From the NCBI GenBank assembly GCA_003650925.1, contig QMSP01000016.1:1-42435 (forward strand): a DNA stretch of 42,435 nucleotides, read 5' to 3'. Positions 3,215-42,435 of the stretch are shown in pieces; position 1 is the first letter of the stretch; every line of letters starts with the position of its first letter. This DNA comes from Thermoprotei archaeon. Its GTDB lineage: Archaea > Thermoproteota > Thermoprotei > QMSL01. Under the pieces are notes generated by a model that had not been told where the DNA came from, did no database searches, and was given only the letters and a program-made list of their open reading frames with translations. The translations under genes were made by a program, and so were the position numbers.

Positions 3215-3276
3215 GAGGCAATGAGGAAGTCCGCATCTACTGATATGTGATGAACGAAAGCGGGCTTTCTGAGCCC
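3215..3276 (+). ncRNA. Box C/D sRNA
   Basis: Complete archaeal C/D layout: C atgagga (3221-3227, one mismatch to RUGAUGA), 12-nt guide agtccgcatcta, D' ctga (3240-3243), 4-nt spacer, C' tgatga (3248-3253), 15-nt guide acgaaagcgggcttt, D ctga (3269-3272). The flanks ggc and gcc close a short terminal stem. A TATA-like element gttaataag (3184-3192) predicts a start near 3213. It would guide fibrillarin-dependent 2'-O-methylation, with both fibrillarin and Nop5 encoded in this window. Targets not determined. Confidence 0.72.
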
Positions 3277-32363: not shown

Positions 32364-32460
32364 GCAGTGGGCACTAGGATTAACGAAGTTCACGCACCTG
32401 GCTCTTATTGCATCTTCTGATTAGGTTTAGGAACTGTTTCTTTGTTGTAGGTCTTCGATA

Positions 32461-32471
32461 AGCTTATATAC
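32461..32471 (+). promoter_or_regulatory. TATA box of structured RNA copy 1
   Basis: agcttatatac lies about 26 bases before the region where strong conservation with copy 2 begins (ggtgac, about 32493). Confidence 0.65.
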
Positions 32472-32491
32472 CTATACTCTACATAAGGCAA

Positions 32492-32600
32492 GTGGTGACT
32501 CCCAGTTTCCGCTACCTGCTCCTTGGTTGGGCGGGGAGGGGGCTGGGAGAAACCGTGATGAACCGACTTACGGAAAGAAGACCGTAGGCGGAGAACGGTA
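32492..32600 (+). ncRNA. Structured RNA of unrecognised family, copy 1 (two hairpins, kink-turn)
   Basis: Hairpin 1 is closed by CUCCCAG (32499-32505) and CUGGGAG (32543-32549). Hairpin 2 has outer stem ACCGU (32552-32556)/ACGGU (32595-32599), a 3-nt bulge GAU, tandem G-A/A-G pairs (60-61 with 93-94), an A-A pair, then CCG/CGG, one bulged A, and CUUACGG (32567-32573)/CCGUAGG (32582-32588) around an 8-nt loop. That is a textbook kink-turn, the L7Ae binding motif. No complete C/D or H/ACA layout and no open frame of note. It precedes nop5 by 65 bases on the same strand and could be a separate RNA or part of a leader. Confidence 0.75.
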
Positions 32601-32664
32601 GAAGTATAAGGACAAAAAAACTTAACTCTATCTACGCTCTTGAAAAACTGAAGAGGAGGGCAGT

Positions 32665-33885
32665 ATGATGAAGGCGTATCTTGTTGAAAACATCTTCGGA
32701 GTGTTTGCATGCGATGAAGAAGGTAAGGTGATTGACAAGGAACTATTCAAAGGAGAGATAAGCGAAATAGCTGATAAACTCTTCAAGCTGGAGGAAGGAA
32801 AGCTCATAGACGAGGTTAAAGCCTTATGTATGAGACTGAAGGAGAAAGGGATTGAGAAAGTAGTGGTTGAGAATGAAGAGTTGGGAAGAGCTATCTCAAA
32901 AGAGCTAGGTCTAGATGTCTCCTTTGAACTACCAAGCAAAGGAGGAAAAGCTCTGAGAGCAAGAGTGATAGAGCTGGGCAAGGAGCTCAACTTGATAAAA
33001 GAGCCAGAGGAGTACATAAGGAGAGTTCAAGAGGTATCAGTGATAATAACCAGGCTTAAAGTAAAAGCAGCAGCTGAGAAAAGAGACCTATTCGTAGCCC
33101 AAGCTGTTACAGCTATAGACGAGTTGGATAGGACATTAAACCTGTTCGCTTCTAGGATAAGGGAGTGGTATAGTTTACACTTCCCTGAGCTCAATGATCT
33201 CGTAAAGGAGCATAAGGACTATATAAAGCTCGTAGCTGAGCTAGGACTCAGAAGTAATTTCACTAAGGAGAATCTTGAGAAATGTGGAATACCCCCCAGA
33301 AAAGCTGAGCAAATAGCAGAGGCTGCTTCAAAAAGTATGGGTGCAGAAATAGCTGAATTTGACATGGAACCTATAAAGATGCTTGCTCTAGCTGCTCTCC
33401 AACTCTTTGAAATGAGGAGCAGATTCCGTAGCTATGTTGACGAAGCAATGAAGGAAGTAGCGCCTAACATAAGAGAACTAGTAGGCCCACTCCTTGGCGC
33501 CAGGCTAATAGCCTTAGCAGGAGGACTACGAAGATTAGCTATGCTTCCAGCCAGTACTATACAAGTTCTAGGTGCTGAGAAAGCCCTCTTCAGAGCTTTA
33601 AGAACAGGTGGCAAGCCTCCAAAGCATGGCGTGATATTCCAGTTCCCTGCTATTCATAGAGCTCCAAGATGGCAAAGAGGCAAGATAGCAAGAGCTCTAG
33701 CAGGTAAACTAGCCATAGCAGCAAGAGTAGACGCCTTCACAGGAGAGTTCATCGCAAGAGAGCTAAAGGAGCAGCTCATGAAAAGAATTGACGAGATAAA
33801 GAAGCTCTATGCAAAGCCTCCAAGAAGAAGACCTGCTAGAGCTAGACCTCCAAGGAGAAGAAGAAAAACTGAAAAGAGAGGTTAG
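32665..33885 (+). CDS. nop5: Nop5/Nop56-58 protein, box C/D RNP core
   Basis: Scaffold of the C/D sRNP that bridges L7Ae-bound kink-turns and fibrillarin for rRNA and tRNA 2'-O-methylation. Visible are the N-terminal fibrillarin-binding domain, the coiled-coil ITRLKVKAAAEKRDLFVAQA region, and the Nop domain with LVGPLLGARLIALAGGLRRLA, STIQVLGAEKALFRAL and KHGVIFQFPAIHRAPRWQRG. A Lys/Arg-rich tail follows. Length 406 is typical. The ATG at 32665 follows a strong ribosome-binding site (gaggaggg). Fifteen or so bases separate it from the fibrillarin gene. The upstream kink-turn RNA suggests L7Ae-dependent control. Confidence 0.96.
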   Translation: MMKAYLVENIFGVFACDEEGKVIDKELFKGEISEIADKLFKLEEGKLIDEVKALCMRLKEKGIEKVVVENEELGRAISKELGLDVSFELPSKGGKALRARVIELGKELNLIKEPEEYIRRVQEVSVIITRLKVKAAAEKRDLFVAQAVTAIDELDRTLNLFASRIREWYSLHFPELNDLVKEHKDYIKLVAELGLRSNFTKENLEKCGIPPRKAEQIAEAASKSMGAEIAEFDMEPIKMLALAALQLFEMRSRFRSYVDEAMKEVAPNIRELVGPLLGARLIALAGGLRRLAMLPASTIQVLGAEKALFRALRTGGKPPKHGVIFQFPAIHRAPRWQRGKIARALAGKLAIAARVDAFTGEFIARELKEQLMKRIDEIKKLYAKPPRRRPARARPPRRRRKTEKRG

Positions 33886-33906
33886 TAAAGGATAGAGGGG
33901 GTGTGT

Positions 33907-34611
33907 ATGAGTATAGCAGTTATCGATGTCAAACCTCATGAGAAGTTTGAAGGTGTCTATTGGGTTAAATTTGAAGATGGAAGTGAAAAACTAGCCACGA
34001 GGAATCTAGCCCCTGGTCATAGAGTGTATGGAGAGCAGCTCATAAGGTGGGAAGGAGTAGAGTACAGGATATGGAATCCATATAGGAGCAAACTTGCAGC
34101 AGCCATATTAAAGGGCATAAAAGAAGTCCCCATAAAAAGAGGCTACAAGGTATTGTATCTAGGTGCAGCATCAGGGACTACAGCTAGTCATGTATCAGAT
34201 ATCGTGGGTCCTGAGGGAGTAGTGTATTGTGTTGAGTTCGCCCCTAGGGTCATGAGAGAACTTGTTGAGAGATGTTGTGAAGTAAGGAAAAACATGGTTC
34301 CTATATTAGCTGATGCACAATTTCCAAGTCTATATAGAATGATAGTGGATGAGGTGGATGCAGTCTACGCTGACATAGCCCAGCCCTTCCAGAGCAAGAT
34401 ATTGGCGGATAATGCAGATGTATTTCTAAAGGATAAGGGATGGATAATGATAGCCATCAAGGCCATGAGCATTGATGTCACTCAGAAGCCATCTGAGACC
34501 TACAAGCGAGAGATTGATACCCTAAAGGATAGAGGCTTTGACATAGTAGACGTTGTTCATTTAGAGCCCTTTGATGAAGCTCATGCTTTCGTCGTTGCAA
34601 AAAGAGCATAG
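33907..34611 (+). CDS. flpA: Fibrillarin-like rRNA/tRNA 2'-O-methyltransferase
   Basis: SAM-dependent methyltransferase of the C/D sRNP. After the N-terminal domain (with the family's [20 protein letters not shown]) the SAM-binding motif is [43 protein letters not shown] and the catalytic lysine in [10 protein letters not shown] are in place. From ATG 33907 it has 234 residues. A GTG two codons earlier is possible, but gaggggg fits 33907. In an operon with nop5. Confidence 0.96.
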
Positions 34612-34662
34612 CAAGCAGACTTTAATATCCCATTTTAACTTATTTATTATCCTGAGGAAAGC

Positions 34663-35598
34663 ATGAGAAAGGACCGTTTAGGGCTGGTCAGTGTAATAGT
34701 CAATACACTAAAAGAACATGGATTCAGAGTTAGTGAGTGTACTAGATTACATGAAGATGTCTGCTTTGATGTAGCTGCTAAAAGGAACAATCTTACTCTC
34801 CTTATAAAAGCCTTGATAAACATAGACAATTATTCAAAAAGCCAGGCTGAGGACTTGAGGAAGATGACGAAGACCTTGTCAGCTGTTCCTCTCATAGTAG
34901 GACTTAAGACGAAGAGAGGCGCTATAGTCGAAGGTGTCGTTCATGAGAGATTTGGAATACGTGTCGTAGGAGTGACAACGTTTGTAAGAGCTCTTAGCAA
35001 TGAGCACCCCATAGCCTATGTGAAGAGAGGGGGCGTATATGTTAAAATAGATGGCGAAGCGCTAAGAAGAGCTCGATCAAACAAGGGGTTATCATTGGGT
35101 GAACTGGCTAAGATGGTTGGCGTGACTAGAAAAACCATTTACGAGTATGAGAGATGTACCATGGATGCTACCGTAGAGGTGGCTGCTCGACTAGAGGAGG
35201 CGCTCGGTGTGTCGATCGTGAAGCCCTTGAACATATTTGACGTAGAATGGTCGATAAAAGAGGAGAGAGCACAGTATGAGGTGGAGAATACTAACGAGAC
35301 TTTGAATAAGGCGAGAAGACTACTGCTCAGACTTGGATTTAGAGTAGCTACACTCAGGAGAGCACCCTTCAATATAGTAGCCTCCTCAAGCAGCGTGAAA
35401 GTAGTAGCAGAAGTTACAAGAGGTGTAGAGGAGGTGAGGAGAAGAGAGGTCAGGCTAGTGAAGGAGATAGCAGATGTCATAGAATCAAAGGCTCTAATCA
35501 TGGTTGAAGAGAAGAGTGATGTTGACAGAGTAGAAGGTGTGCCAGTCGTTAGCATAGAGAGTGTAAGAGAGGTAAAGAGTGTTCTTAGAAAGAGCTAG
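34663..35598 (+). CDS. HTH-type transcriptional regulator of the COG1395 type
   Basis: Archaeal DNA-binding protein of 311 residues with a central Xre/Cro-type helix-turn-helix (about 131-180): EALRRARSNKGLSLGELAKM followed by VGVTRKTIYEYERC. The N-terminal domain (1-125) resembles a nuclease-like fold seen in this family (DVCFDVAAKR, PLIVGLKTKRGAIVEGVV). The C-terminal region is alpha/beta of unknown role. Target genes are unknown. Its TATA-like element lies after flpA, so it is probably a separate unit; its stop overlaps the convergent rnhB stop by 4 bases. Confidence 0.82.
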   Translation: MRKDRLGLVSVIVNTLKEHGFRVSECTRLHEDVCFDVAAKRNNLTLLIKALINIDNYSKSQAEDLRKMTKTLSAVPLIVGLKTKRGAIVEGVVHERFGIRVVGVTTFVRALSNEHPIAYVKRGGVYVKIDGEALRRARSNKGLSLGELAKMVGVTRKTIYEYERCTMDATVEVAARLEEALGVSIVKPLNIFDVEWSIKEERAQYEVENTNETLNKARRLLLRLGFRVATLRRAPFNIVASSSSVKVVAEVTRGVEEVRRREVRLVKEIADVIESKALIMVEEKSDVDRVEGVPVVSIESVREVKSVLRKS

Positions 35599-36263
35599 AG
35601 AAGCCTTCTAGTCTTCTTCATATCGACCATACGCCTTATCCTATCAAGAGTAGCCCAGCTTCTTCTAACTATAGGTGGGAAATCTCCATGCTCTTCATAC
35701 CACCTAGTTAGAAAGTCTACGGTTCTGGGGTCGCTTGGATAGCCTGAGCCGAAGTCACCATAGGTGGCCTTTAGTTGCTCAATGACTCTATCGCGTTCAA
35801 CCTTAGCTATTATGCTCGCAGCTGCAACTATAACATACCTAGCATCAGCATGATTCTCTACTACTAGCTTTACCTTTGAAGTATGACTCATAAAGCTTAG
35901 TATCCTTCTTTTATAGCGGTCTGGATTTATGTCTGGCGAGTCTATGTACACGACATCTGCGCCTAGCTCTTCCACTATCCTAGCCATGACTTTAGCTTCA
36001 AGAGCATTTAATTTGCCCATGCTAGTCCTGCCTACATATTTATCTATCTCATCGGGCTCTACCTTGGCTATGCATACTTTAAGGGCAAGCCTTCTAATTT
36101 CTCTCGATAAGAACTCTCTCTGACTAGGTGAGAGAGTCTTGGAATCTCTTACTCCTAGCTCTTGTAGGCTGGACATAGCACCTTCATCCACACATACTCC
36201 AGCTATGACAAGAGGTCCTATAATAGGACCCCTTCCAGCATCATCTACTCCTCCTAATCTCAA
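35595..36263 (-). CDS. rnhB: Ribonuclease HII
   Basis: Cleaves RNA in RNA-DNA hybrids and at single ribonucleotides in DNA. N-terminal GGVDDAGRGPIIGPLVIAGV is the family signature, but reads D7-D8 where most enzymes have Asp-Glu. VYIDSPD and VAAASIIAKVERDRVI supply the other catalytic region, and FGSGYPSDPRTVDFL is typical. Length 222 is normal. The TTG start overlaps the THEP1 stop (TTGA), so the two are translationally coupled. Confidence 0.94.
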   Translation of the reverse strand: MRLGGVDDAGRGPIIGPLVIAGVCVDEGAMSSLQELGVRDSKTLSPSQREFLSREIRRLALKVCIAKVEPDEIDKYVGRTSMGKLNALEAKVMARIVEELGADVVYIDSPDINPDRYKRRILSFMSHTSKVKLVVENHADARYVIVAAASIIAKVERDRVIEQLKATYGDFGSGYPSDPRTVDFLTRWYEEHGDFPPIVRRSWATLDRIRRMVDMKKTRRLL

Positions 36264-36805
36264 GGTTTATCACCTAGAAGTTCACGTAGTATAACCAGAT
36301 GAAGATTTCTTCTATTACGCTCATCAACCACATACACCTTTACATTAGGCATCCTCCCTTCCCTAATGGATCTAGCCAGAGGGTGATAGGCACGGAGATG
36401 TACAGTACCTAGGACTATCTTCTCTGTATGAAGAGCTCTTTTCACGGCATCTACAAATCTACTGGAGAAGAGCTCCATTTTGCCCACTTCGTCTATCACA
36501 ATCACATCACATTCATTTATAGCGCGTTCTATAGCTCTGACTCCCACCTCGTTAAGATCCTTCAGATTAACTCGATACCTGCCCACTCTTGGGCCTGTTT
36601 TCTGCTCTACATGGGCTAGAACTCCTCTAGTGCCATTGTATATATCGACTATCTCAAACCCCACTCTTCTTCCACCTTCTCTCACTTCTCGAGAGATCAT
36701 TCCACCAACCTTGAATCCTCTCTTCTTCAGCTCCTCCACTATCTTCATCAACACCGTTGTCTTACCCACACCAGGCCTTCCAGTGAGGAATATCGCTCTA
36801 GGCAA
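36260..36805 (-). CDS. THEP1-family nucleoside-triphosphatase
   Basis: P-loop NTPase of 181 residues resembling Aquifex aeolicus THEP1, which hydrolyses several NTPs; the cellular role is unknown. Walker A is FLTGRPGVGKTTVLMKI at the N-terminus and Walker B VIVIDEVGKMELFS. The segment GGMISREVREGGRRVGFEIVD (about 34-54) and VLGTVHLRAYHPLAR are also family-like (quoted as MISREVREGG and VLGTVH). A TATA element (atatatagtt, 36821-36830) lies just upstream. Operon with rnhB. Confidence 0.9.
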   Translation of the reverse strand: MPRAIFLTGRPGVGKTTVLMKIVEELKKRGFKVGGMISREVREGGRRVGFEIVDIYNGTRGVLAHVEQKTGPRVGRYRVNLKDLNEVGVRAIERAINECDVIVIDEVGKMELFSSRFVDAVKRALHTEKIVLGTVHLRAYHPLARSIREGRMPNVKVYVVDERNRRNLHLVILRELLGDKP

Positions 36806-36866
36806 CTTCTACACCGCTTGAACTATATATTGGATACGAGATAATTTTGACGGTGAGAAATAGATT

Positions 36867-38114
36867 ATGGAGAAGTGCCTGAGAGAAGCAGAGGAGGAGA
36901 TGGGATTCCCTTTAAAGGTTGTGAAGGAAGGGAGAGTCATCATCCTAGCACCTGATCCAGATTACTTCAAGAACTCCATGGGACATTTTGATCCAGCTCA
37001 TGCTCCAGTATTCTACAATCCTAGAATGGAGATGAACAGAGACATAGCCATCATAGCTGCTAATGTGTTTAGAAGAATATTCTTCAAGAAAGGCCTCAAG
37101 ATATGTGAGCCCTTCTGTTCAACAGGAGTTAGAGGAATCAGATATGCAGTTGAGGTTGAGGATGTAGATGAGGTGATAATGGGAGATATAAGCGAGAAGG
37201 CCGTGAAGTTAGCCAAGATCAACGTAAAAATCAATGAAGTCAAGGACAAGGTTAAGGTGCTATGTATAGAGGCTAATGTGCTATTGAGCCTACATGCGAA
37301 AAGAGGAAGGAGATTTTCAATAATAGATCTCGATCCCTTCGGGTCTCCTATGCCCTTCATGAGCAATGCCATAAGGGCCATAGAGCGAGGGGGAATGATC
37401 TGCGCAACAGCAACTGACCTACCTCCTCTATTTGGTGCTCATCCTAAGGCATGTTTGAGAAAATATCATAGTCTTCCTCTTCGATGTGAGTTCTCTCCTG
37501 AGATAGGAGCTAGAATATTATTGGGAGCTATGTGTCGTGAAGCAGCTAAGTATGAGGCTGGAATAGAAGTACTCTTCACATACTATGCAGACCACTACGT
37601 GAGAACCTACGTCAGGTTGAGTTTTGGAGCAAGTAGAGCTGATGAAAGCCTAAGCCATCTAGGATTCATTGCTAAGTGTAGTAGCTGTGCGTGGAGAGGT
37701 ATGATGAGAGGATTTATTCCAGTCATTCCCACTAAGTGTCCAAGCTGTGGAGATGATGTGCTTGTAGCAGGCCCCCTTTGGTGTGGACCCCTTGTGGACT
37801 ATGAGTACTGCAAGAAGATGCTGGAGGAGGTGATGCTAACTAAAGTGAACACACGGAAGAGGATCATTAAGCTCCTCAGCCTGATACTTGAGGAGGCCAG
37901 GAGTCCAGGCCTGTACTATACTACTGAGGAATTCGCCAGTAAAATGGGGGTGTCTGAGCCCAGCCCACGTAAGGTAGTAGAAGAGCTAAGGGATAGGGGA
38001 TTCATAGCAACTCTTACACACTATGATCCGAAGGGATTTAGAACTAATGCTGAAGTAAAGGATATAGAGGAGGTTATTCTTGACTTAAGTCGCCGTCTTA
38101 GTGGTAAGAGATAG
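36867..38114 (+). CDS. trm1: tRNA (guanine26-N2)-dimethyltransferase Trm1
   Basis: Dimethylates G26 of tRNA using S-adenosylmethionine. Signatures are HAPVFYNPRMEMNRDIAI, EPFCSTGVRGIRYAVEV (SAM motif), IIDLDPFGSPMPFM (the DPFG catalytic motif) and CATATDLPPLFGAHPKACLR. A zinc-binding region holds cysteine pairs CSSC (near 271) and CPSC (near 291), and the C-terminus carries a winged-helix-like domain. Length 415 is normal. Its end overlaps the convergent TFE-beta-like gene by 30 bases. Confidence 0.96.
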   Translation: MEKCLREAEEEMGFPLKVVKEGRVIILAPDPDYFKNSMGHFDPAHAPVFYNPRMEMNRDIAIIAANVFRRIFFKKGLKICEPFCSTGVRGIRYAVEVEDVDEVIMGDISEKAVKLAKINVKINEVKDKVKVLCIEANVLLSLHAKRGRRFSIIDLDPFGSPMPFMSNAIRAIERGGMICATATDLPPLFGAHPKACLRKYHSLPLRCEFSPEIGARILLGAMCREAAKYEAGIEVLFTYYADHYVRTYVRLSFGASRADESLSHLGFIAKCSSCAWRGMMRGFIPVIPTKCPSCGDDVLVAGPLWCGPLVDYEYCKKMLEEVMLTKVNTRKRIIKLLSLILEEARSPGLYYTTEEFASKMGVSEPSPRKVVEELRDRGFIATLTHYDPKGFRTNAEVKDIEEVILDLSRRLSGKR

Positions 38115-38447
38115 TAGCCACTCAGTGAGTTTCCTACATGTACTAGGATCGTGTTCCTGCTTCTCTCCGCACATCTCAAGATAGGGGCATGAAAAGCAAG
38201 GACATTCGAGGAGAGCATCAAGAGGCTCTGCCTCCCTCAGAGGAAACACCTTGAATGTCCTTCTTCCCTTCATGATTACTTTCTCTCGTTTGATAACTCC
38301 CTTCTTTTCAAGCTTGGCCAAGATCCTGGATACGTCACGAGATGATACGTTGAGTCTTCGTGCAATCTCTGGCTGGATTATGGGTTCATCTATCTCTCTT
38401 AGAAATCGAAGTATTCTTTCCTCTAGGAGACTACTCTTGCTAACCAC
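38085..38447 (-). CDS. Winged-helix Fe-S protein of the TFE-beta/RPC39 type
   Basis: Protein of 120 residues. The N-terminal winged helix (about 5-70, with IIQPEIARRLNVSSRDVSRI and LEKKGVIKRE) is followed by a cysteine cluster C82-x-C84-x2-C87-x5-C93-x10-C104 and LTEWLL. This layout matches the [4Fe-4S]-carrying archaeal TFE-beta/hRPC39 family, which works with TFE-alpha in transcription initiation. Some Fe-S winged-helix regulators look alike, so TFE-beta is likely rather than certain. GTG start, TATA-like ttttattc at about 38470-38477. Confidence 0.7.
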   Translation of the reverse strand: MVSKSSLLEERILRFLREIDEPIIQPEIARRLNVSSRDVSRILAKLEKKGVIKREKVIMKGRRTFKVFPLREAEPLDALLECPCFSCPYLEMCGEKQEHDPSTCRKLTEWLLSLTTKTAT

Positions 38448-38507
38448 AGTTACTAGAGCTGGTTAGTTGAATAAAAGGGTTATGAGGCTGTTCCCTGTAT
38501 AGGTCTT

Positions 38508-39632
38508 TTAAGGTCTTTGTAGGTTTCTTCTTGCTCTAAGAGCTATTAGGTATGCACTAGCTGTATGTTCATCTAACCCACATTTTCTCATAACGTATTC
38601 GTGGTTATTTGAGTGTGTTGTTCCCTTTGGGTTAACAGTTATTACTTGTAATCCATATAGTGCTGCTTTCCACATAATCCTTTCAATGATCGAGTTCCTA
38701 AAGATGGATACTTTGTAGTTGTAGTTCTTTGTTTTTCTTTCACCATTCCTTATCCAGTAGTACCTTAAGTAACCTATTATTTCTGGGTTTTCCACAGCTA
38801 TAACGGATGCTCCATGACTGTAGGCGTTCCTAAGTATTTCATGTATTCTCTCACCTATGATGCTCCATGCCCTCTTTCTTTTGTAACCTCTAGATGTTAC
38901 TTGGGGGAATCTGGCTGTATATCTCCAAACTATATCTCCACTTCTATTAATGACCACAAGGTTGAGTCTATCAACATTAACATCTATACCAGCTATGTTA
39001 TTCCCTGGAGGCTTATCGTATCTCTTCATAGCCTCTAAGTAGAAATCGTACTTCACCATAACCTGTATCTCCCCATAGAGGTGTTCTAATCCACCACCAT
39101 AGTCCGTGATGTAGATTCTAGCTGGGTAACCTATTTCCTTTCTAAGTGCCTTCTCAACCAAGCTCCTAGTTAGCTTAGCATAACCCTTAGGTATAACTGG
39201 CTTCATAGTTATCTTCCTACTTGATTTGTCCTTATCGAAGACTAGTACCCTTACCTTATTGTAATCTATGAACTGTATGTTTAGGTTTCCCTTAGCCCAA
39301 GGTTCTGCCTCACTCTGGAATAGTAGCCAAGGTTTAAGCTCCAGCTTGGTGATGTCTACTTTTAATGCTTTAGCACTTTGAAGAGATGCATGTAGAAGAG
39401 TGGAGATGCCGTCTATGTATCTACGGTTAGGGATGATATCATAGCATAACCTCCTACTAAACTTGATGAAATCGTACTGAGATAAATCGGCTAATAATGG
39501 GTTCTCTTTAATAATGTTAAGTAGTCTATGAGCACATATCTTACAAAGCCATGCAGTCCAGTAAATGAGCTTAGCATTCCCCCCAGTAACATGGAATGGT
39601 AGCCTTAATGTGATGTACTCAATTTGCTTCAT
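38508..39632 (-). mobile_element. TnpB-related RuvC nuclease gene without zinc ribbon
   Basis: Protein of 374 residues with the RuvC triad of TnpB/OrfB proteins: D217 (GIDVNVDRLNLV), E281 (VIAVENPEIIGYL) and D354 (GLDEHTASAYLIAL). The zinc-ribbon cysteines that usually separate the last two motifs are absent; VNPKGTTHSNNHEYVMRKCG occupies the place. I recall a crenarchaeal TnpB-related group with this GTTHS...GLDxHTASAY pattern. TnpB proteins are RNA-guided nucleases linked to IS200/IS605 elements; no tnpA is present. The intact triad suggests it is or recently was active. Its promoter overlaps that of a structured RNA on the other strand. Confidence 0.82.
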
Positions 39633-39647
39633 AGGGATATACCCAAT

Positions 39648-39678
39648 AAACTTATATACTCAGACTCTATATAAGTTT
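39648..39678. repeat. Perfect inverted repeat with divergent TATA boxes
   Basis: AAACTTATATA (39648-39658) and TATATAAGTTT (39668-39678) are exact inverted repeats with a 9-base spacer. The left arm serves as TATA box for the plus-strand RNA at 39680. The right arm, read on the minus strand, is well placed for the TnpB-related gene starting at 39632. In copy 1 the left arm is kept and the right arm is degenerate (tacataagg). Confidence 0.8.
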
Positions 39679-39679
39679 A

Positions 39680-39791
39680 ATTGGTGACCCCTAGTTTCCG
39701 CTACCTGCTCCTTGGTTGGGCGGGGAGGGGGCTGGGAGAAACCGTGATGAACCGACTTACGGAAAGAAGACCGTAGGCGGGGAGCGGTTTC
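39680..39791 (+). ncRNA. Structured RNA of unrecognised family, copy 2
   Basis: Nearly identical to 32492-32600. Hairpin 2 here has a longer stem GAAACCG (39738-39744)/CGGUUUC (39785-39791) continued by U39745-G39784, bulge GAU (39746-39748), tandem G-A pairs (49-50 with 82-83), CCG/CGG and CUUACGG (39756-39762)/CCGUAGG (39771-39777). Relative to copy 1, U-A becomes U-G and A-A becomes A-G, so the kink-turn is kept. Hairpin 1 is less perfect (CCCCUAG against CUGGGAG). Its 3' end meets the stop codon of the convergent tfb gene at 39790. Confidence 0.75.
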
Positions 39792-40725
39792 AGAGTATTA
39801 TGATGAAGTTTAATTGCTCCACGAGCTCCTTATATCTGTTCCTAACGGTAACCTCTGTCACTCCTGCTACTTGAGCTATCTCTCTCTGAGTCTTCTTATA
39901 GTTGAGAAGTGTACATGCCAAATATATGGCAGCAGCAGCTAATCCCACTGGACCCCTGCCGCTGGTCAGGCCGAGCTTGCTAGCAGCCTCTATTATCTCA
40001 ATGGCCTTCGTCTGTACTTCGCCTGGAAGTCTAAGCTGATTTACCAGCCTGGGGACGTAGTCAGTGGGCTTAGCGGGCGGTACTCTGGAGATCTTGGGGA
40101 GTATGGTTTTGGCTAGCGAGCGATAGCTCCTGCCTACTTCTTTCTTGGTGGCTCTAGCTGCATGAGCTATTTCATCAAGGGTTCTAGGTATCTTAGCTAA
40201 TCTACAGGCAGCATATACGCAGGCAGCGGCCATGCTCTCTATGGAGCGTCCCTTGGCTATACGGTCCTGAATAGCCCTGCGATAAATCAATGCAGCAGTC
40301 TCGGTTACATTTCGAGGAAGTTCAAGAATTGATGCTATTCGATCTATCTCAGCTAGTGCTAGAGCCATATTACGCTCAACGGAATCCGACACTCTAACTC
40401 TCCTCTGCCACTTCCTCAACCTATAAGCAGTTATCCTCTTCTCTAGGTTCAGGTTCTTGCCGGTACTATCCTTATTCCTCCAGTCTATGACTGTAGATAG
40501 GCCTTTGTCATGTATCATGAGAGTTGTGGGCGCTCCTGTCCTAGTTCTTCTCTCCCTTTGCTCTTCATCAAAAGCTCTCCATTCTGGGCCAGGATCAACC
40601 ATGTGATCCTTTATGACCAGACCACAGTTAAGGCATATTATCTCAGCTCTATCATAGTCTCTTATTATCCTAGTGCTACCACATTCAGGGCATCTCTCAA
40701 TCATCTCCTCCCTACCTTCCGCCAT
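39790..40725 (-). CDS. tfb: Transcription initiation factor TFB
   Basis: TFIIB homologue that binds TBP-DNA and recruits RNA polymerase. N-terminal zinc ribbon with C12, C15, C31 and C34 (RCPECGSTRI, CLNCGLVI), B-reader/linker with EWRAFDEEQRERRTRTGAP, then two cyclin repeats; the second holds VGLAAAAIYLACTLL and the DNA-reading helix VAGVTEVTVRNRYKELVEQL. Length 311 is normal. It overlaps gar1 by 25 bases and ends against the 3' end of the structured RNA copy 2. Confidence 0.97.
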   Translation of the reverse strand: MAEGREEMIERCPECGSTRIIRDYDRAEIICLNCGLVIKDHMVDPGPEWRAFDEEQRERRTRTGAPTTLMIHDKGLSTVIDWRNKDSTGKNLNLEKRITAYRLRKWQRRVRVSDSVERNMALALAEIDRIASILELPRNVTETAALIYRRAIQDRIAKGRSIESMAAACVYAACRLAKIPRTLDEIAHAARATKKEVGRSYRSLAKTILPKISRVPPAKPTDYVPRLVNQLRLPGEVQTKAIEIIEAASKLGLTSGRGPVGLAAAAIYLACTLLNYKKTQREIAQVAGVTEVTVRNRYKELVEQLNFIIIL

Positions 40726-41460: not shown

Positions 41461-41827
41461 TTATGACACCATCCTGACCAGGGCGTGAAGTCACACGGGC
41501 TCTTCCAATCTCCGTCTCGATTACGGCACTCTTCGTTATGACTCCTCTTCTCGAATAATCCTGGTTCACAGGATTCTCTACAACTCTAAGTATTCTAACT
41601 CTCTTAGTGATTCCCTTTGAGGGTATGGTAACGTTTGCATAAAGCGCCCTTACTAGCCTTATCTTGAAGTTGCCTCCTCGAACTCTAATCCTCTTCCTTT
41701 CCTCCTCAACGCCCATTAAGGTCTCAGTAGGAGGTCTGCCCATATGGCACTTTAGCTTCTTCTTTCTATGCGGACGTTTTCTCCCTCCACTTGGTTTTCG
41801 AAGGTCATTTCCTTGATAGATCACCAT
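41420..41827 (-). CDS. rps8e: Small-subunit ribosomal protein S8e
   Basis: Ribosomal protein S8e, 135 residues. The start [20 protein letters not shown] is typical. [29 protein letters not shown] and [20 protein letters not shown] confirm it. The ATG at 41827 has a TATA box at 41861-41870 and a short leader. Its start overlaps the stop of the TnpB gene entering from the window edge. Confidence 0.96.
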
Positions 41828-42435
41828 AGATACACCATTTCTAACCGTTTGTTCCTACCGCTATTTAAAGCTATAGCATAGTATATCTGCGGTAGGGACT
41901 TCCACCTCGCCCATAAGGATTTAGGTATCCCTATGGGGTCATGGGTGGCATTCGAGGACAACGGCACAGCCCTCACATCTACGTCTAGCCCTACGAGGTG
42001 ATGGGAGCTATGCTCCAAGCCTCGTAGGGCTTTAAGGAGAAGATTCCAACAAGCAACAACATCTCTATGCCATAGTTCTCCACCTTTACCACATTTACCT
42101 ATCCTAGAGCTGTTGTTGTAGTTTATTGGGGTGCCATGGACAGGGCATAGTCTTGATGTATTCTTTGGATCAACGTAGATTACTGTTACGCCATGTTCTT
42201 TTGCCTTTTCCTCTATTGCTCTCTGAATACCTCTAAAAGAAGCTTGGAATATTCTGTGTCGTAATTGCTTATCTTTAATTCTGGCTATCATGTTGTTGGC
42301 AGGTTTCTTACCGAGCTTCTCAAGAACAATAGAATATCGCTTCTCATAAGCAGTTTTAACAATTATATTTGCTATCTTCCATCTAATATCAAGCTTCTTC
42401 TTCCTCTCTTTCAGCTTCCTCATAGTTTTCCTCTT
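41821..42435 (-). mobile_element. tnpB: TnpB (IS200/IS605 OrfB) nuclease gene, N-terminal part outside the window
   Basis: C-terminal part of a TnpB: RuvC-II glutamate in YSIVLEKLGKKPANN, the helix LRHRIFQASFRGIQRAIEEK, YVDPKNTSRLCPVHGTPI and RDVVACWNLLLKAL with the RuvC-III aspartate. The zinc ribbon is degenerate (CPVH and CGKG rather than two CxxC). The tail SSNATHDPIGIPKSLWARWK resembles tails of other archaeal TnpBs. About 20 further residues ([20 protein letters not shown]) read through the S8e TATA box to a stop overlapping the S8e start, as if the gene's own stop had been lost. The reading frame is open at the window edge. Confidence 0.85.
41861..41870 (-). promoter_or_regulatory. TATA box of the S8e-SRP19 transcript
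   Basis: The minus strand reads ctttaaatag, about 38 bases before the ATG at 41827, predicting a leader of about 12 nt. The element lies within the 3' coding frame of the TnpB gene. Confidence 0.6.

Follow-up and report, generated by a model that had tools for sequence, protein, structure and literature searches.

What are two nearly identical structured RNAs, each preceded by a TATA box, doing in the genome of a Thermoprotei archaeon? Both lie in the window, the whole 42,435-nt stretch of contig QMSP01000016.1 analysed here (Table 1). The earlier note had placed the two units at 32459-32600 and 39646-39791 and described a near-identical RNA of about 105 nt with a kink-turn (K-turn), and these descriptions hold. 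Both units carry the TATA-like sequence CTTATATA, and the copies are 95% identical over 110 nt. Each RNA folds into two hairpins (copy 1, -52.7 kcal/mol, z -4.2; copy 2, -52.8 kcal/mol, z -3.5), and in neither case does any shuffle fold equally well. The K-turn consists of a C-stem (CCG/CGG), a GAU bulge, tandem G.A pairs and a C/G stem beyond them. The position before the bulge is U-A in copy 1 and U-G in copy 2, and an A-A or A-G position lies between the tandem G.A and the C/G stem, as the note had it. The extra stem it assigned to copy 2 exists, but is built with flanking bases 3' of the scaffold. The statement that no open frame runs through the RNA fails on an antisense ORF of 101 aa that crosses copy 1 (32405-32710, minus strand), which is probably spurious. 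A C/D layout was rightly denied: box C/D sRNAs carry C, D, C' and D' boxes with guides between them, whereas a single K-turn is present here and no C/D family in Rfam matches the window copies. A probable box C/D sRNA is located elsewhere in the window, at 3217-3274 on the plus strand (sR1 model, E 2.7e-6, under the gathering score).

Table 1. Position and basis of the RNA units, their elements and the divergent gene in the window
Feature	Position	Strand	Basis and remarks
Solo element, copy 1 (tnpB-end motif, TATA box and RNA)	32426..32598	+	left boundary approximate; right end by covariance model
TATA box, RNA copy 1	32463..32470	+	sequence, kept among copies
RNA scaffold, copy 1	32491..32598	+	fold; covariance model R1 match 32474-32598, 68 bits; putative start about 25 nt past the TATA box, end at the conserved GAACGG
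K-turn hairpin, copy 1 (CCG-U-GAU-GA ... GA-A-CGG)	32553..32598	+	fold, pair analysis
Putative guide, copy 1 (flanking DNA)	32599..32618	+	inter-copy similarity stops here; presumed length
Full element, copy 2, about 1.3 kb	38480..39787	+	conserved left end 38480-38530 plus RNA end; left boundary approximate
TnpB/Cas12f-like RuvC nuclease, 374 aa, no zinc finger, D217/E281/D354 kept	38508..39632	-	profile searches, alignment, model
TATA box, RNA copy 2	39651..39658	+	sequence
RNA scaffold, copy 2	39681..39787	+	fold; R1 match 39662-39787, 64 bits
Putative guide, copy 2	39788..39807	+	enters the 3' end of the TFB gene; presumed length

The RNA is more numerous than the two copies first noticed. 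Nucleotide search recovers 4 close copies in this genome and further ones in relatives, and a covariance model (R1) built from 23 RNAs and run on 81 genomes of the class finds about 150 copies in 24 of them, including 19 in this genome. The earlier note had asked for compensatory changes in relatives; these are found and support the RNA structure. Double changes occur in 8 of the 11 RNAalifold consensus pairs. When sequences are anchored on the K-turn, position 3 of the distal stem is paired in 27 of 31 (shuffle mean 13.4) and position 7 in 28 of 31 (shuffle mean 15.5), each with six pair types, in a set that was chosen with the pairing score and includes one probably spurious entry (the second L089). 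The C-stem shows CG-to-GC swaps among relatives, and the U-A position also appears as U-G and C-G. As judged from these alignments, the structure is conserved as RNA. At two contig starts (L090 and L091; G000:C8 and C57), the RNAs are identical up to the K-turn and differ in their apical hairpins; as repeats, they interrupted the assembly.

In the window, no match to Rfam attains the gathering score of its family, and around copy 1 none is found at E<=5. The description of the family as unrecognised therefore stands for the window sequences, which also have no match to RF02814 (Sso133), but not for their sisters. Two RNAs used in the covariance model, L165 and L184, match RF02814 at 37-38 bits (E about 5e-6 to 8e-6; cut-off 44 bits), L065 matches it at E 0.005, and the full relatives L158, L161, L172, L174 and L179 pass the 44-bit gathering cut-off. 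Sso133 matches in Sulfolobaceae and other genomes are followed by the same K-turn, and at several loci the same protein is encoded divergently. By sequence comparison, Sso133 (Sulfolobus sRNA133) is the 5' half of this guide-like RNA; the Rfam model spans the 5' hairpin half alone, with no function assigned there, in the same type of locus as here. This orphan RNA thereby gains a testable function. Contig G178:C1 holds eight near-identical copies of the Sso133 type, some retaining just the last 30 tnpB codons, in a genome with no matches to Y1 or serine transposases.

Copy 2 lies directly upstream of, and divergent from, an ORF of 374 aa, and the same arrangement with homologues of this ORF is repeated at G003:C16, G059:C59, G058:C58 and G003:C303. 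Across all RNA-gene pairs within 700 nt, the RNA is upstream and divergent in 28 of 30; both exceptions are formed by one RNA inside a disrupted gene. Inspection of the 5' side of the homologue genes shows GTGATGAACC...GAACGG, intact or diverged, at most of them. The covariance model matches an adjoining RNA at 28 of 43 genes checked, and among the remaining 15 several are at contig ends (G000:C46, G046:C99, G055:C33) while others have a diverged RNA by eye. Protein search finds homologues in 25 of the 81 genomes, with 9 matches in this one. RNA and protein occur together in 18 genomes, against 7.4 expected (hypergeometric p 7e-8), and 6 genomes have a covariance model match without a protein match. 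The TATA box of copy 2 could also drive tnpB on the opposite strand. In one subfamily (L070, L071, L124, L116), the distance between RNA and tnpB is 216-224 nt, and the gap contains a short conserved reading frame that resembles an AbrB-type protein by eye and has no Pfam match.

The product of this ORF matches profile libraries weakly, with best E values of 0.00015 (Cas12f2 model) and 0.00042 (TnpB-related model), and its PF07282 score of 18 bits is under that family's cut-off; TnpB-related models do, however, recognise 13-16 of the 33 family members. Among the 33 homologues, D217 and E281 of the RuvC D/E/D triad are invariant and D354 is nearly so, and no CxxC motif of a zinc-finger insert (TNB domain) is present. 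The AlphaFold2 model has a mean pLDDT of 87.8, and Foldseek places it closest to Cas12f (1.1e-10), followed by ISFba1 TnpB (1.3e-5). The protein is a compact TnpB/Cas12f-type nuclease, presumed active, and points to a set of small nucleases from thermophiles, about 360-375 aa long, that lack a zinc finger. No viral, phage or plasmid relatives of the protein were found. A second TnpB reading frame, of the zinc-finger type, occupies 41821-42423 on the minus strand of the window (PF07282, E 3.5e-14); at 200 aa it is below full TnpB length.

The RNA and the gene are enclosed in a mobile element whose boundary on one side is the end of the RNA scaffold, past which the copies have nothing in common. 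Since the structured RNA stops at this boundary, any 3' extension of it consists of flanking DNA. On the other side, the tnpB stop codon is only about 30-60 nt from the element end. Copy 1 has no adjoining tnpB-like gene. On its left it carries AACTGTTTC..GTAGGTCTT, which corresponds to the end that full elements have on their tnpB side, and by this sequence match copy 1 is a solo element from which the internal part, including tnpB, has been deleted. Solo copies keep both element ends, the promoter and the RNA, those of the window type retaining about 35 nt of the tnpB-side end and the whole divergent RNA; they are internal deletion derivatives, since the tnpB-side end is joined directly to the TATA box and RNA. 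L104 (G003:C102) is apparently inserted within the tnpB of another element, and L112 (G003:C227, 1152-1437) has a solo copy immediately preceded by a piece of an RNA 3' end in inverted orientation, which looks like two neighbouring insertions. At L004 (G000:C6, 1501-2361), a solo RNA adjoins a LAGLIDADG homing-endonuclease ORF (PF14528, E 5e-9) in a locus flanked by a gene for a KH-domain protein and a gene resembling rps12.

Joined element flanks were searched in related genomes for uninterrupted alleles, and empty alleles were found for six elements (L125, L097, L084, L098, L071 and L061). In these six, the insertion point follows a G-rich stretch and target duplication is absent. The G-rich motif borders the tnpB side, and the flank that resembles a guide comes immediately past the scaffold on the RNA side. 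Within the G run, joined flanks and empty alleles disagree at 0-2 nt; the motif is therefore inexact, and the cut can be placed in more than one way. In L125, the stretch of 29 nt past the scaffold recurs without a difference in the empty allele of the relative G027, another species, where GGGGG stands just before it; motif and guide are therefore adjacent only in the empty allele. Retention of TnpB-based elements needs exactly this arrangement. For the subfamily of the window, no empty site was found in the relatives searched, and the flank there is (G)GG or GGGTT. At L060 (G037) and L062 (G071), about 650-680 bp of host gene are absent between the element flanks, relative to related genomes.

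As a mobiliser, the Y1 HUH transposase was rejected, with 0 matches in the own genome and none in G003, G055, G046, G027, G040, G056 and G178. No serine TnpA is encoded inside the copy 2 element; serine recombinases are present elsewhere in the genome and in 11 of 12 genomes tested, with none in G178. IS607 targets (G)GG, has GG at its termini and inserts without target duplication (PMC6188088). The elements here insert at G runs without duplication, but with the 0-2 nt offset from empty alleles given above.

Taken together, the RNA most likely serves as guide to the zinc-finger-less TnpB/Cas12f-like nuclease of its mobile element, in which RNA and gene are laid out in inverted fashion, a reading drawn from the sequences. 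It is supported by the predominance of upstream-divergent pairs, the co-occurrence with the protein, the covariation, the RuvC triad, the Cas12f fold, the six empty sites and the solo copies, and has K-turn precedents in the RAGATH-18 guide RNA of TnpB and the OrfB-related RNAs of Pyrococcus. Against it stand the 3', same-strand guide of known TnpB, the weak TnpB sequence similarity, the inexact motif, the lack of an empty site for the own subfamily and the 6 genomes with RNA alone. The earlier note had left the choice between a stable RNA with a function and a small mobile unit; both are right at once, the RNA being a conserved mobile-element end, but the divergent nuclease gene was missed.

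Could the conserved end instead act as DNA, in the manner of IS200/IS605 ends, with hairpins recognized by a transposase in trans and an incidental RNA? The structure does lie at the element end and is kept by solo copies, and IS ends commonly bear hairpins. This is nevertheless unlikely, as what is conserved is the base pattern of a K-turn in RNA (UGAUGA / GA, sheared G.A), with G-U pairs, a TATA box is present at constant spacing, and the 5' half is listed in Rfam as a Sulfolobus sRNA. Still less credit is due to a canonical guide taken by the TnpB-like protein from the 3' end of its own gene, which would leave the divergent RNA to regulate tnpB or transposition. Such a guide is the rule among known TnpB (PMC8612924, PMC12817955), but the space between stop codon and element end is very short, solo copies of the window type save the entire divergent RNA and little of the tnpB end, and the G-rich motif is on the tnpB side with the guide-like flank on the RNA side. 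The slightest chance is given to a domesticated, TldR-like system, with chromosomal genes, nop5-fibrillarin for instance, repressed or otherwise regulated by the protein and the solo RNAs. RNAs (19) do outnumber protein matches (9) in this genome, and copy 1 is 67 nt before nop5; the RuvC triad, however, is intact, the copy 1 guide has no second genomic target above the reversed-pattern control, and the RNA is absent upstream of nop5 in 32 relatives.

With the guide-RNA reading preferred, the element is closest to TnpB-omegaRNA (OMEGA) systems of IS200/IS605 such as ISDra2, in which a compact RuvC nuclease is likewise carried by a mobile element, a structured RNA reads out of one end and a short motif flanks the other. 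The OMEGA features of a RuvC D/E/D triad in a Cas12/TnpB fold, and, by sequence at the six empty sites, of a guide from flanking DNA with the motif at the other end, are found here. A zinc-finger insert in RuvC and a guide overlapping the tnpB 3' end on the same strand are not, as 28 of 30 pairs are upstream-divergent. In known systems the guide RNA derives from the 3' end of tnpB on the same strand (PMC8612924, PMC12817955), and cleavage by ISDra2 TnpB depends on the motif (PMC8612924). The RNA here is instead 5' of tnpB, on the opposite strand and under its own promoter, with a K-turn, a G-rich motif and a protein without a zinc finger. An inverted architecture of the TnpB-omegaRNA kind, with a divergent RNA, its own promoter and a K-turn, is most likely what is new. 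A literature search covering few subscription papers found no account of Sso133 and none of a TnpB guide RNA placed divergently 5' of its gene.

Other known systems share some of these traits. The IS607 TnpB RNA derived from RAGATH-18 is a reRNA with a possible kink-turn (PMC11061315) and a purine-rich motif; it is downstream of its gene on the same strand, unlike the upstream-divergent RNA here, and RAGATH-18 in Rfam has no match to the present RNAs. Cas12f (CRISPR type V-F), the best structural match of the protein, uses a CRISPR array, whereas each mobile element here has one RNA, a comparison that covers element layout only. TIGR-Tas (PMC12045711) also combines RNA-guided DNA targeting with C/D-like motifs and, in some members, RuvC, but has a Nop-domain protein and tandem arrays in place of a Cas12f fold and single RNAs.

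In the proposed mechanism, the RNA would be transcribed from its own TATA promoter, on the strand opposite to tnpB, outward through the element end. Transcription would continue into the flank, so that each copy carries the adjacent 16-20 nt as its guide. The resulting RNP would recognize the motif and the guide where they are adjacent, in the empty site, and cut there, whereupon repair of the break would restore the element by copying; a filled site would escape because the element keeps motif and guide apart. Solo copies would use the nuclease in trans. By analogy, the K-turn may be bound by host L7Ae, suggesting that a host K-turn protein participates in such an RNP. This binding is plausible because L7Ae shifts the OrfB-related K-turn RNAs sRkB, sRkC and sRk52 of Pyrococcus abyssi and is reported to bind small RNAs linked to transposases in Sulfolobus (PMC3124441). 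The Pyrococcus RNAs match the sense 3' end of orfB, the likeness being that of transposase-related archaeal RNAs with K-turns.

Guides taken from the 3' end of the nuclease message, as in known TnpB systems, are physically tied to the nuclease. Here the two are uncoupled: the RNA has a separate promoter on the opposite strand, and derivatives that consist of the RNA without the nuclease could work in trans. The RNA cassette would then be a free-standing mobile guide, plausibly an intermediate on the way to guides encoded apart from the nuclease, as CRISPR has them. A more tentative extension, on balance rather doubtful, is a widespread archaeal system of RNA-guided nucleases whose guide RNAs move as independent cassettes, each with its promoter; many solo RNAs would share one TnpB-like protein in trans, gain a new guide with each transposition and have L7Ae as an RNP subunit.

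Copy 1 stands before nop5-fibrillarin, its end (32598) separated from nop5 (32665) by 67 nt. A leader element of nop5 was considered and rejected: no equivalent RNA occurs upstream of nop5 in 32 relatives, where just three weak minus-strand matches are seen. Matches of the copy 1 guide elsewhere in the genome are no more than those of the reversed-pattern control, giving no second target. The position before nop5 is an incidental insertion, and in this lineage nop5-fibrillarin might be transcribed in part from the copy 1 promoter.
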